Source: a virus
Length of the DNA stretch: 33,933 bases
Reading direction: 5' to 3' (one strand)
IMG/VR virus record: IMGVR_UViG_3300031974_003505
Span: 1-33,933 of that record
Part shown: positions 4,078 to 9,419 of the stretch, one piece after another
Numbering within the stretch: position 1 is the first letter of the stretch
How the letters are laid out: each line of letters starts with the position of its first letter
Notes under the pieces: model-generated
What the model was told of the DNA's origin: nothing
The model's database searches: none
The model's input: only the letters and a program-made list of their open reading frames with translations
Program-made: the position numbers and the translations under genes

Positions 4078-4818
4078 TTACTTTAGCAGCGGTTGCAGCT
4101 TTCCCGCTTGTTCCGTGGCTTCCGCGCCTTTTTGTGTGTAGCTTGATGTCTGGATTGGTGGCGAGGTTGTACCCGCTCCACCCGGATCGCTCCACGTGTA
4201 TGAATGGTTGTGCGTTCCTGCAACTTTTGCGAGGTCTGCGACGGTGTTCATTAAGTCGTGAAGCAGGCTATAAATGTTTGTCGAATCGTCGCCGCAATGG
4301 TGTGTTGTTGCGATTATCTCGCTTAGCTCACCCGCTTTAAACCTTAGATCTTTTTCTATCTCTGTGGTGCTGTTCTTGCCCTTGGTTTCCCATTCATCGT
4401 CTTTGTTTACTTGCGTATAGGCCTTCTCTGATTGCTGCCAACGTTGTGACGTCTCGGCCATGTTGGGCAGTTTCAAGCCGTGCGGCAATATTGATCGAAT
4501 GAATGGATGCGCTGGCGATCCATAAGCAAAGGCCAATTCGACAATAGTGCCTATGCTTGGCTTTGACCAAAATCCGCGCTGTTCGCCACCTGCCGGAACC
4601 GGTAGCAGCACATCGACCATTACCGGCACGTCCGTGTCTTCTTCACCATTTCTTTTTAGCAGTTGAACCGACACAGAATAAACGGGCACTTCCTCTGTCA
4701 CCTCTTCCCCTGCCAACGGTGTGAGTATGTCCGTTACTTTGGCCCACATGGGCAAATGCCATCCGCTTTTCAGTTCTGGGTATTTGCGCATGAGCGTGCG
4801 CTCTATCATCGCTTCCAT
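4078..4818 (-). CDS. V: Baseplate spike / assembly protein V-like
   Basis: A protein of 246 aa at the end of the late operon. The central part (VPVMVDVLLPVPAGG, GFWSKPSIGTIVELAFAYGSP, HPFIRSILPHG) has the OB-fold character of gpV-type puncturing proteins. The C-terminus carries a THNHSYTW His-X-His motif and a Gly-rich tail, as seen in spike tips that bind a metal ion. It would form the trimeric membrane-piercing tip under the hub. It overlaps the hub-like gene upstream by 13 bases. Sequence similarity to P2 gpV itself is not obvious, so the symbol is by role and position. Confidence 0.7.
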   Translation of the reverse strand: MEAMIERTLMRKYPELKSGWHLPMWAKVTDILTPLAGEEVTEEVPVYSVSVQLLKRNGEEDTDVPVMVDVLLPVPAGGEQRGFWSKPSIGTIVELAFAYGSPAHPFIRSILPHGLKLPNMAETSQRWQQSEKAYTQVNKDDEWETKGKNSTTEIEKDLRFKAGELSEIIATTHHCGDDSTNIYSLLHDLMNTVADLAKVAGTHNHSYTWSDPGGAGTTSPPIQTSSYTQKGAEATEQAGKLQPLLK

Positions 4819-5489
4819 GAGACCACCATTTTGGCGCCCATCATGCGAACGCTTGTTAATCGATTTCCGTTTAATAAATAATTTGGTCTTAGTCCTGGCA
4901 CCGCCATGATTTCTGCACTTTGCGTTGCCAGCTGCTTATCCAGCACCGCAGCAGGTATTGTAATTGGCAAGTTTGGCCAATGGCCGTCCTTCCACGCGCC
5001 AACATAAATTAGGCCATCGCGTCGCTGCTGCCACAAATAGCCGCTTATCTCGAATACGTCTGCTAGCGCTTTTATTAAATGAAACCCGTTTCCAGTGTTT
5101 ATGAAGTGCGGCACAGTTTTGGCGACATAGTCTGCCGACGGCAGTGCAAAACCCAGCCCTGTGATCTCCTTAACTTTTGTCAGCACATCTTTCAACGTTG
5201 CATTTCGCAATGCTAATGGCACCGGCATTTCGAGCATGTTTGATTTTTCTCGGCAAAATATACTTTGCACGCCATCGCCTGCCGTTGTTGATTTTTCTAT
5301 GTATCCATATAACTGCCCTTGTTGCTGCCCGCCATCAATGCCAAACGAAAAAAACGCGGTCCCACTGAGTGAAACCGCGCTTTCTACAACAAACGTTGCT
5401 CGCCCTGGCATGCCAGAGTTCAGTGCTACATCATGAGAAACCAGCGACACTCGTTCACCGTTAATTTTGAGCGTGTAGTCATACTTCAT
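4806..5489 (-). CDS. D: Tail hub protein, D-like
   Basis: A 227-aa protein resembling the N-terminal part of phage hub proteins of the gpD/gp27 group: an opening beta segment with KINGERVS, GRATFVVES and an aromatic LYGYIEKS, then a LysM-like or helical insert (LKDVLTKVKEITGLGF, FHLIKALADVFEISGYLWQQ). P2 gpD is longer (about 390 aa), but short versions are typical of the HP1/K139 branch. It overlaps both neighbours (U-like and V-like), so the three are translationally coupled and probably build the central baseplate hub. Confidence 0.7.
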   Translation of the reverse strand: MKYDYTLKINGERVSLVSHDVALNSGMPGRATFVVESAVSLSGTAFFSFGIDGGQQQGQLYGYIEKSTTAGDGVQSIFCREKSNMLEMPVPLALRNATLKDVLTKVKEITGLGFALPSADYVAKTVPHFINTGNGFHLIKALADVFEISGYLWQQRRDGLIYVGAWKDGHWPNLPITIPAAVLDKQLATQSAEIMAVPGLRPNYLLNGNRLTSVRMMGAKMVVSWKR

Positions 5490-6200: not shown

Positions 6201-6491
6201 TCAGCTCAGCGGAAACCGCGCTTTGATGCGCTCTACAGCAGTAATGCCCAGCGTTCGAGCCACTTCTGCTCCCTCTTCATCGCCTTCTGCGCTTTTGCGC
6301 ACTGACTCTAAAAACAGCGGATCCGATTCGCGCTGGTACGCATTTGCGCGCTTTTGCACGTTTTGCGACAACTCGAATGCACGCTGAGCATAAACAGAAT
6401 CGATTTGCTCTTGATCCATGCCTAACGCTGCCATATAGGCTTCGCTGAAATCGTCGTGCGTTTCGTTGTTAAAAATGTAAGTTTGCTTCAT
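6201..6491 (-). CDS. Hypothetical phage protein, 96 aa
   Basis: An all-helical, charged 96-aa protein (MKQTYIFNNETHDDFSEAY at the start, LGITAVERIKARFPLS at the end). No membrane segment and no family recognised. It begins inside the 3' end of the reverse transcriptase gene (23-base overlap) and ends next to the ribosome site of the 52-aa ORF. It may be a tail-fibre chaperone or tail accessory protein. A DGR-accessory role is also possible because of its position next to RT, but nothing in the sequence shows it. Confidence 0.6.
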   Translation of the reverse strand: MKQTYIFNNETHDDFSEAYMAALGMDQEQIDSVYAQRAFELSQNVQKRANAYQRESDPLFLESVRKSAEGDEEGAEVARTLGITAVERIKARFPLS

Positions 6492-7764
6492 TTTGACCCC
6501 TCTTGAGTTTTATGCTCAGTAGTTTTTGCGTTAATTGCTTGGTGCTAGCGTGGCGCGCATGGCCCAGCCAGCTTTGAATATTTTGCTGTATGTCGATTAG
6601 ATCGACCTCGCCAGCGGCGTATTTCTTTTGAAATTTACGCAGCTTGGTTTTAATTCTTTTCACGCTGCATTTGCGTAACAAACGATGCGTTGAGTAAATC
6701 CGATAGCCGAGAAAATCCAACGCCCTCCCGTTGTGTTTTGCAATCGGGAATACTTGCGTTTTGCTGTTTGTTTGCAGTCTCAATTGTGACCACAGAAACC
6801 GCTCGATCTGTTCGCGCCACTCATGCAACTGCGCTTTGTCGTGATGAATGACTGTGAAATCATCCATATAACGCATGTAATTTGGCGCTTTTAATGTGTG
6901 TTTTACGAACCAATCCAACTCATGCAAATACACATTGGCAAAAACTTGGCTAGTCAAATTGCCCAGCGGTATGCCGACGCCTGCCGCATCGCTTGGGCTG
7001 TTGTCGATAATGTAAAACAACAGTGCTTTCGTGCGTTGGCACCTTAATTTTTTATCTAATATCGATTTCAATATACTGTGATCGATGCTCGAAAAATACT
7101 TGCTAATGTCCGCTTTTAGCGCGAACGCTTTGCCGTGTTTACGCTCCACTTGCTGTATAAACGATTGCGCCCGATCCGCGCCTTTATGCGTACCTTTGTT
7201 TTTGCGGCACGCATAGGAATCATAGATATATTGGCGATCAAACAGCGGTTCGATGATGTTATAAATTGCCCTATGCACAACTCTATCCCGAAAATGCGGT
7301 GCGCTAATTAGCCGACGTTTTGGCTCAAACACATAAAAATGATGATAGAGCGACATTTGATACATCTGCCAAACTAACTCGTTTTGTATGCTGATCACGT
7401 TTTCTTCGAGATTGTTAAAAAACGACAATACCGCTGTGTTTGTTGTTTTACCGAGCCGACACTGATATGCCGCATTCAGTATGTTTTCAAACTGATAAAT
7501 CTGTTCGTATAAACACTCGCTCGACGCATCGAGCGAGGTAATTCGTGTTTCGGCAATAGCCGAGGATGCTGCATCCTTTTCATGACTGCACTGACAGCAC
7601 GCCTTGGCGTTGCTGTTTCTGGCATTATCAAGAGCGGGGCGGAACCCGATGTTCGTGTTCGAATTCGAACGAGCATTGTTCAGATTGAGCGCGCCCAACC
7701 CGGCATTCGAGCCGTTGTTCCAATTGCCACCGCGTAGCGGGAATCGGTTCCGCTTATTCATCAT
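6469..7764 (-). CDS. brt: DGR reverse transcriptase, with TR-encoded N-terminus
   Basis: A protein of 431 aa from the ATG at 7764, which overlaps the avd stop codon (ATGA) and has AGGG upstream. Residues 6-44 are encoded by the template repeat. The RT domain starts near residue 85 (LYEQIYQFENIL) and contains KRRLISAPHFRDRVVHRAI, the catalytic Asp of LKADISKYF (219), the DGR-type signature GIPLGNLTSQ (264-273), YMDD (299-302) and a thumb-like basic C-terminus. It copies TR RNA into mutagenised cDNA with errors at adenines. No ATG, GTG or TTG occurs between the end of the TR and LYEQIYQF, so translation seems to pass through the TR; a rare ATT start or an unusual start within the TR (one TTG) remains possible. 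Confidence 0.93.
   Translation of the reverse strand: MMNKRNRFPLRGGNWNNGSNAGLGALNLNNARSNSNTNIGFRPALDNARNSNAKACCQCSHEKDAASSAIAETRITSLDASSECLYEQIYQFENILNAAYQCRLGKTTNTAVLSFFNNLEENVISIQNELVWQMYQMSLYHHFYVFEPKRRLISAPHFRDRVVHRAIYNIIEPLFDRQYIYDSYACRKNKGTHKGADRAQSFIQQVERKHGKAFALKADISKYFSSIDHSILKSILDKKLRCQRTKALLFYIIDNSPSDAAGVGIPLGNLTSQVFANVYLHELDWFVKHTLKAPNYMRYMDDFTVIHHDKAQLHEWREQIERFLWSQLRLQTNSKTQVFPIAKHNGRALDFLGYRIYSTHRLLRKCSVKRIKTKLRKFQKKYAAGEVDLIDIQQNIQSWLGHARHASTKQLTQKLLSIKLKRGQNEANLHF
7633..7748 (-). repeat. DGR template repeat (TR)
   Basis: A 116-bp segment matching the VR at 8205-8320 at 112 of 116 positions. The four mismatches (7652, 7659, 7665, 7724) are all adenines in the sense (minus) strand here, replaced in the VR by G, G, T and G. 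The sense strand holds roughly 25 adenines, concentrated in ten AAY (Asn) codons in the shared frame, the design that gives most amino-acid diversity without stop codons. It lies between avd and the RT domain, as in other phage DGRs, but inside the RT open frame. Confidence 0.96.
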
Positions 7765-8114
7765 GCAGCACCCTGTCTCTGTGGGTTTGCAGCTTTTATC
7801 CAGCCGCCCACCATTTTTCCTATTTCGACCAGCTTTTCTGACCATATCTGGTATTTTTTAACATCTATGTAACGTAAATCTTTTGCCAGTCTTACTCGTC
7901 TACGCAGTATTGACAGCTCGATATCCAAATCCGTTAGCGTCGTTTTCTTGTGATAGCGCTTATACGCTGTAATGATCAAGCGCTGCACTGACAGCATTGA
8001 CTGCCTGATTTCAGCGCCCAAAACGTGTTTTTCGTGTTTTGGGAATTGCTGCACAGCGTTGTATCCATACATCATCATTTCTCTGCATTTTTCATCAATC
8101 ACTAGCACTGTCAA
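7761..8114 (-). CDS. avd: DGR accessory variability determinant Avd
   Basis: A 117-aa, highly basic, helical protein. Its FPKHEKHVLGAEIRQSML core and later LSILRRRVRLAKDLRYI helix match the four-helix-bundle Avd family (Bordetella phage Avd is about 128 aa). Avd assembles as a pentamer that binds RT and TR RNA and is needed for retrohoming. Translation probably starts at the TTG at 8114, six bases after AAAGGGG; GTG at 8108 or 8102 is an alternative and the first ATG (8078) would remove 12 residues. It follows the variable-protein gene and overlaps the RT start by ATGA. Confidence 0.9.
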   Translation of the reverse strand: MTVLVIDEKCREMMMYGYNAVQQFPKHEKHVLGAEIRQSMLSVQRLIITAYKRYHKKTTLTDLDIELSILRRRVRLAKDLRYIDVKKYQIWSEKLVEIGKMVGGWIKAANPQRQGAA

Positions 8115-8192: not shown

Positions 8193-9419
8193 CTACACAA
8201 ATAAAGCGGGGCGGAACCCGATGCTCGTGTCCGAATACGAACGAGCATTGTTCAGATTGAGCGCGCCCAACCCGGCATTCGAGCCGTTGTTCCAACTGCC
8301 ACCGCGTAGCGGGAATCGGTCGCCATAGTTGCGAGAATATATGTAGCCTGTTAGCCCAGCATCACCAGCCGATTCGATCAATAATCGGCGCAACACTTCG
8401 TTTTCCGCGTAGCTATCGTCTTTCGCAATAGCTGAAAACAGGCTGTTTGTGTTATATCCGTAACTCGTACCGTCATCGCCCGTTGGGCCAGTTCGGTTTG
8501 TAATGGTGCTGTTCAATATTGGCGAGCCGACACTGCCAGACTGATTGGCCGACGGCGAATCAAAATAGGCAGTATGGCGGTGCCAATTTTCTTCAATAAC
8601 TGACGGATCGTTATCCAGCGTCGTGATAATACGCCCATCTTCTAATCGCATTTGATCTAGCCATTCATGCACATTGCCGACTAGGTCTTGAATGCCAAAT
8701 GCGCCATGGTCATGTGCCCATGCGTCTGGCCCCGAGCCTGTATCGGTTCGACCTGTACCAGAGGTGTTTCCAGGCATGCCGCCATCGGCGCGCAATGCCG
8801 TTTCGTGCTTCATGTCGTGCGCGCGGCCATAGTTTGTATTGCCGCGTGGCACCGTGCCATTTGCCAATGACCAAAGCGAAATAGCGGCCCACTCCCACGT
8901 CGACGACATATGCCAATTCAATCCCTTCATCGTGCTGAGCAATTTTGCGGCGTCGTAATTCACATTAGTGCGCGGCTGCACGCCGCCGATGATAGAGCAA
9001 CCGCCACCCGCTCCTGCCGACGCCTGATATTTGCCAATCAAAAATTCCCCGCGATCAACGCCGTTCGTTCGGAACGCTGGATGCGTGCCCGTACCCAACT
9101 TCATATCAACACCCGTTGCCGTCAAAATAGCAGCGTTGACATCTTCACAGTTAAAACGCGGCACCACGACCATAATATTTTCATTGCCTTGGGCGTCGAG
9201 AATCATCGTATTTCGACCACCAGACGCCTTCTCAACTGCGTTGCGGTAACCGGCCGTAGCCGTGATAGTTAACGACGCGGTTTTTTCTGCAAAGTTTGAA
9301 TTTACATCATTGATTGATTGCGTAGCGTCTTCGCGAATAGATTCAAACGACTCTTTCGCAGACTGCATTTGCTGTGTTGCGCTCGTTAGCGCCGTTGTTG
9401 CATCAGTAATATCGCTCAT
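8193..9419 (-). CDS. DGR variable protein, receptor-binding tail-fibre tip (FGE/C-type lectin fold)
   Basis: A protein of 408 aa. Residues 1-55 are a helical, probably trimeric linker (TQQMQSAKESFESIREDATQ). Residues ~75-405 resemble the formylglycine-generating-enzyme/sulfatase-modifying fold, a C-type-lectin variant: FLIGKYQAS, a central STWEWAAISLW, VGNVHEWLDQM and the terminal RGGSWNN...IGFRPAL. The VR encodes about residues 367-405. Compared with the TR-encoded sequence, four Asn are now Ser, Tyr, Asp and Ser. It overlaps the short gpH (ATGA) and takes the place of the distal fibre, so it probably contacts the host receptor. AGAGGAC precedes the ATG. Confidence 0.93.
   Translation of the reverse strand: MSDITDATTALTSATQQMQSAKESFESIREDATQSINDVNSNFAEKTASLTITATAGYRNAVEKASGGRNTMILDAQGNENIMVVVPRFNCEDVNAAILTATGVDMKLGTGTHPAFRTNGVDRGEFLIGKYQASAGAGGGCSIIGGVQPRTNVNYDAAKLLSTMKGLNWHMSSTWEWAAISLWSLANGTVPRGNTNYGRAHDMKHETALRADGGMPGNTSGTGRTDTGSGPDAWAHDHGAFGIQDLVGNVHEWLDQMRLEDGRIITTLDNDPSVIEENWHRHTAYFDSPSANQSGSVGSPILNSTITNRTGPTGDDGTSYGYNTNSLFSAIAKDDSYAENEVLRRLLIESAGDAGLTGYIYSRNYGDRFPLRGGSWNNGSNAGLGALNLNNARSYSDTSIGFRPALFV
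8205..8320 (-). repeat. DGR variable repeat (VR)
   Basis: A 116-bp counterpart of the TR with changes at 8224, 8231, 8237 and 8296, all at sites where the TR sense strand has A. The 3' end (sense) is an adenine-free GC-rich block, GGGTTCCGCCCCGCT, shared by both repeats and suited to be the initiation-of-mutagenic-homing site. The sequences diverge immediately after it. Confidence 0.96.

Follow-up and report, generated by a model that had tools for sequence, protein, structure and literature searches.

The window, a 33,933-nt stretch of viral DNA, is a temperate tailed-phage genome that encodes an integrase, terminase, portal, tail sheath and tape measure. Its minus strand carries a diversity-generating retroelement (DGR) with the gene order target protein with variable repeat (VR), avd, template repeat (TR) and reverse transcriptase (RT). 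The variable target protein (8193-9419, minus strand) is SUMF1/FGE-like and a candidate for the C-type-lectin-like variable protein of DGRs; its match to phrog_2889 is strong, and its FGE-sulfatase score of 16.9 lies below the cut-off of 23.3. The VR (8205-8320, minus strand) is a 116-nt match to the TR (7633-7748, minus strand) with 4 mismatches, all four of which fall at TR adenines. The avd gene (7761-8114, minus strand) encodes the accessory protein (NF033474, 117.2 bits against a cut-off of 80; PF22296). The RT gene occupies 6469-7764 of the minus strand (431 codons plus stop), with an RVT_1 domain at residues 149-356. The best PDB match of the RT is the BPP-1 DGR RT 8ub7 (E 2.4e-60 by sequence), which is also the top Foldseek match. 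A DGR-type RT, a TR/VR pair differing at TR adenines and Avd, by which a DGR is recognized, are thus all present at the locus.

The RT frame begins with an ATG at 7764-7762, which overlaps the avd stop codon TGA at 7763-7761 as ATGA and is directly followed by another ATG at 7761. The frame then runs without interruption to its stop codon at 6471-6469 and contains the whole TR, which encodes about 39 residues (RFPLRGGNWNNGSNAGLGALNLNNARSNSNTNIGFRPA) that align with the end of the solved protein 5vf4. Between the TR and the RT lies a 120-nt linker (7515-7634, minus strand), which would provide RT codons (approximately residues 44-84) as well as a covarying, RT-14-like structured RNA. Its strongest hairpin, helix 4 (7516-7537, minus strand; 9 bp), directly precedes the RT fold proper, which extends from residue 85 on (6469-7512, minus strand) and is homologous to BPP-1 RT from residue 8 on. 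One in-frame TTG (residue 23) falls within the TR; downstream of the TR, the first in-frame ATG, GTG or TTG is a TTG at residue 113. The coordinates therefore bear out the sequence-only reading, which had described an RT frame that opens at an ATG fused to the avd stop, passes through the TR without a stop and lacks a start codon between the TR and the first RT motif. The frame is also open slightly upstream of 7764, and an in-frame ATG at 7845 within avd is absent from relatives.

The RT start codon in related loci

We gathered RT-related loci from viral contigs, genomes, phages and plasmids, removed duplicates, located the TR of each locus as an A-tolerant repeat and traced the RT frame upstream. 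The fused clade comprises 36 distinct loci whose RT core shares 63% identity or more with that of the window; the 63% cut was chosen after the data were seen and is supported by the tree. In this tree, built from 100 RT cores, the fused loci form one branch (SH-aLRT 97), within which VHML is the sole exception.

All 36 clade loci have the ATGA start overlapping the avd stop. The check by homologue alignment that had been proposed from the sequence alone finds the in-frame arrangement kept: the frame is open through the TR and linker in 36/36 clade loci, compared with 28 of the remaining 98 (97 plus VHML; approximately 29%). The spacing from the TR to residue 85 is always a multiple of three in the clade (120 nt in 32 loci, 123 in two and 126 in two), whereas the 98 other loci are distributed randomly over the three phases (37/32/29). 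Moreover, a start codon follows the TR in all 98 of them; counted from residue 85, its position is -21, -18 or 0 in nearly every case. Standard start codons between the TR and the fold are scattered in the clade; 20 of its 36 loci have no ATG, GTG or TTG between the TR and residue 90, and many reach their first standard start only at residues 123-131, inside the conserved fold. Since no start codon is common to the clade, we rejected an internal start after the TR. The open frame might be a coincidence and the TR a normal non-coding spacer, as the 28 open loci among the non-fused would allow. However, those 28 all keep a start at the RT fold, whereas the clade has none that is conserved and is open throughout, so that we give this explanation almost no credence.

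In the stretch from the ATG to the TR, the other two frames contain stops in 36/36 and 28/36 clade loci, and in most of them the VR frame is thus the only one without a stop. Judged from these frames, the sharing of the target-protein frame by the TR is no extra coincidence. The VRs of the clade differ from the TR almost exclusively at A, mostly with 7-20 mismatches, and therefore the RTs of the clade have worked. The same fusion was found in none of 67 BPP-1-like and Lagaffe-like DGRs, all of which have a start after the TR. Two fused-clade RTs, in a Photobacterium damselae plasmid (L207) and proACA1-A (L118), are broken by a downstream stop or frameshift; these are dead or decaying elements.

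The nearest outgroups of the fused branch, the Aeromonas group and the loci L029, L122 and L189, share a short linker and carry their ATG precisely where the fold begins (MYEQI..FEN). The fold-start Met of the outgroups is replaced by Leu, Thr, Ser, Ile or Ala in the fused clade. In the window, the site of the lost conventional start is the TTA codon at 7512-7510, just 3' of helix 4. Read most simply, these sequences point to a single loss of the conventional start and a takeover by the ATGA upstream. Seven Aeromonas-group loci (L013-L016, L027, L032 and L120) also have an RT frame open through the TR, and two others (L026 and L121) have a frameshifted linker with an intact RT. We rejected the group as members of the fused class: two loci are frameshifted, the group has its own ATG at the fold and it lies outside the fused clade. 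Its openness looks accidental, because the ATG at the fold is kept.

In phage VHML, one extra T shifts the linker by +1, and the RT carries about a dozen further small indels compared with VP58.5. Because of these many further indels, the VHML record is a poor or dead sequence, and we rejected it as a counter-example. The sequence-only reading had named two findings as evidence against its proposal, a homologue with a stop codon or frameshift in the TR and an intact RT, and an RT start mapped downstream of the TR; neither was convincingly found: VHML is poor or dead, and L026 and L121 lie outside the clade. The comparison of relatives strongly supports the proposal that the RT carries a TR-encoded peptide, and the RT is almost certainly a protein with the translated template as its N-terminal tail. 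We put at roughly 90% the probability that the window contains a DGR of the VHML/VP58.5/ACA type, in which the start at the fold has been lost and the RT is translated from the ATGA through the TR and linker.

Protein code and RNA structure overlap in the linker

By parsimony, approximately 450 substitutions occurred in 39 linker codons of the fused clade without creating a stop, and were distributed over codon positions 1/2/3 as 118/120/212. The probability of finding no stop in the linker is about 5e-8 under drift without a frame; these coding figures leave RNA constraint aside and are thus approximate. Pairwise differences by codon position are 25/29/45% in fused linkers versus 34/29/37% in non-fused linkers, the latter resting on only 12 pairs. 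Across the clade, the prefix has 44, 42 or 41 codons and the linker 39-41, and the two together underwent at least 8 length changes by parsimony, all multiples of three. Together, these comparisons between sequences show that the linker is under codon-level constraint.

Two other sites of initiation have to be weighed against the ATGA. The RT could initiate in the linker or fold at a non-standard codon, such as the ATT at residue 89, with the TR kept open only for the sake of the VR. Indeed, the TR part is open in the VR frame anyway, and the codon at residue 89 is near-cognate (ATT, ATC, ATA or CTG type) in 33 of the 36 loci. However, such a start leaves unexplained the lack of linker stops, the codon-position bias, the spacing and prefix indels in multiples of three and the ATGA itself, and no near-cognate linker codon is common to all 36, which makes it very unlikely. 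Still less probable is a start at the out-of-frame ATG in GATGCG (7529-7527, minus strand), near the old start, followed by a frameshift. This motif is present in most fused loci and, through the extra T, is in frame in VHML, close to the usual start; yet L003 and L005 have GACGCG, without an ATG, and a start at this site would need no open linker upstream of it.

The linker of the window also occupies the position of the RNA element that precedes the RT in other DGRs. It matches Rfam RT-14 (RF02921) over the full length with 44.7 bits, below the threshold of 48.1, and the linkers of six relatives score 36-42 bits, also below the threshold. The corresponding elements of other DGRs pass their Rfam thresholds (Phage_DGR in BPP-1 and RT-14 in BalMu-1). 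The linker RNA therefore resembles RT-14 and is not assigned as a member, as its score is under the gathering threshold. A four-helix structure is supported across 20 fused sequences by 96.6% standard pairs and 15 pairs with double changes, far above shuffled and slid controls, and the window's own stretch folds better than its shuffles (z -3.55). In one helix, bases of the linker pair with the TR at its 3' end; this helix hardly varies and is thus not evidence by itself. The spacer at the corresponding place in BPP-1 primes cDNA and recruits RT-Avd (PMC12875486). Covariation and codon usage across the aligned loci show that a protein code and a conserved RNA structure overlap in the same linker bases.

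The N-terminal tail

The window's RT has 77 more residues ahead of the fold than BPP-1 RT, since its residue 85 aligns with residue 8 of the latter. In an AlphaFold2 model based on 50 sequences, pLDDT is below 50 for residues 1-71 and the fold is confident from about residue 80, so that a tail of approximately 70 residues is predicted to be disordered.

The linker contains invariant Cys and Lys-Asp positions across the clade. Their codons coincide with the RNA motifs CAGTGC and AAAGGATGC, which are found in other frames in non-fused relatives, and we therefore rejected a protein reason for the invariance of these residues. It is conceivable that the translated tail has its own job, by binding RT, Avd, RNA or the target, or by inhibiting the RT until cleaved, as its retention across the clade and the invariant Cys and Lys-Asp might suggest. 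We consider this unlikely, given that the invariant residues coincide with RNA motifs of non-fused relatives, that the tail is predicted to be disordered and that conservation of the TR part follows from the VR. The tail is probably a passenger, which is the simplest view because the VR accounts for the conserved residues of the TR part and the RNA motifs for those of the linker part.

PHROG 1423, annotated as 'Reverse transcriptase', aligns at its positions 3-41 with the C-terminus of the target protein (8196-9419, minus strand); hence this PHROG RT family seems to include the TR-encoded tail.

Known systems and proposed mechanism

The arrangement itself has been reported previously, and the window is a further example. 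The novelty implied by the sequence-only reading is not supported, since the arrangement already appears in PMC10612066, in the annotations of VP58.5 and p0908, and as 'group 3' in PMC3521204. According to section 3.13 of PMC10612066, translation of the TR gives the RT of the Pseudoalteromonas phages ACA1/ACA2 an N-terminal extension, which the authors call uncommon. In these phages (OR438928 gp44), the TR likewise lies in frame inside the RT ORF, which overlaps avd by ATGA, and the RT is about 74% identical to that of the window; however, they are different phages, and the account is one sentence, without a comparative test or the RNA overlap. Vibrio phage VP58.5/VHML and plasmid p0908 have the same order. 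The RTs of VP58.5 (gp20) and p0908 are annotated to start at the ATGA, whereas in the VHML record the annotated start follows the TR, and the RT contains several small indels. Structural group 3 of DiGReF, as outlined in part of PMC3521204, consists of TRs overlapping the RT ORF; this group is defined on annotations, and the outline gives no mechanism. The prototype DGR of BPP-1 shares the VR-avd-TR-RT order, the RT fold (8ub7) and an RNA element between TR and RT, but its RT starts after the TR and RNA element, with about 7 residues before the fold versus 84 in the window. In the open-access text on RT N-terminal extensions, PMC10612066 alone was relevant, and we found no earlier account in the open-access literature of a clade-wide test, the start-codon loss or the coding/RNA overlap.

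We propose that the common ancestor of the clade lost the start at the RT fold and that RT translation shifted upstream to the ATGA. Ribosomes that end avd would start or restart there, coupling the translation of avd and RT, and would then cross the TR and the linker RNA. The resulting RT would be longer by about 80 residues at its N-terminus, and 39 of these would copy the C-terminus of the target protein. An RNA on which ribosomes are crossing the TR and linker could not at the same time assemble into an RNP, and vice versa, so that at any moment it would be either message or template. Furthermore, RT-Avd bound to the linker RNA would dampen its own synthesis. A transcript could act as message and as template alike in any avd-TR-RT operon; the special feature of this clade is that no RT would be made unless ribosomes pass through the TR and the priming RNA. 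That translation would compete with reverse transcription is plausible. We are more doubtful that the fused layout is a regulatory device that switches each transcript between the production of enzyme and of mutagenic cDNA, and offer this as a tentative idea.

We rejected an internal RT promoter, as promoter-like sites number 3 across the 3.3-kb DGR region, versus 5.2 expected by chance; on the RT strand, there was no such site within avd downstream of the avd start, nor in the TR or linker. A lineage in which the template and the RNA element for cDNA synthesis also serve as RT codons offers a natural test of whether the two processes, translation and reverse transcription, interfere on a single RNA. 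Annotators and DGR finders should take note that an RT ORF opening ahead of the TR is legitimate in this clade, where the TR is no non-coding spacer.

Other gene arrangements were observed among the gathered loci. Four betaproteobacterial and viral-contig loci (L034, L084, L087 and L111) have two DGR-type RT genes in tandem (approximately 5300-8000 in L084), the second of which is about 37% identical to the window's RT. In L078, a 665-nt near-exact duplication (4282-4946, offset 557) includes avd and the TR, and thus places two avd-TR copies ahead of a single RT.
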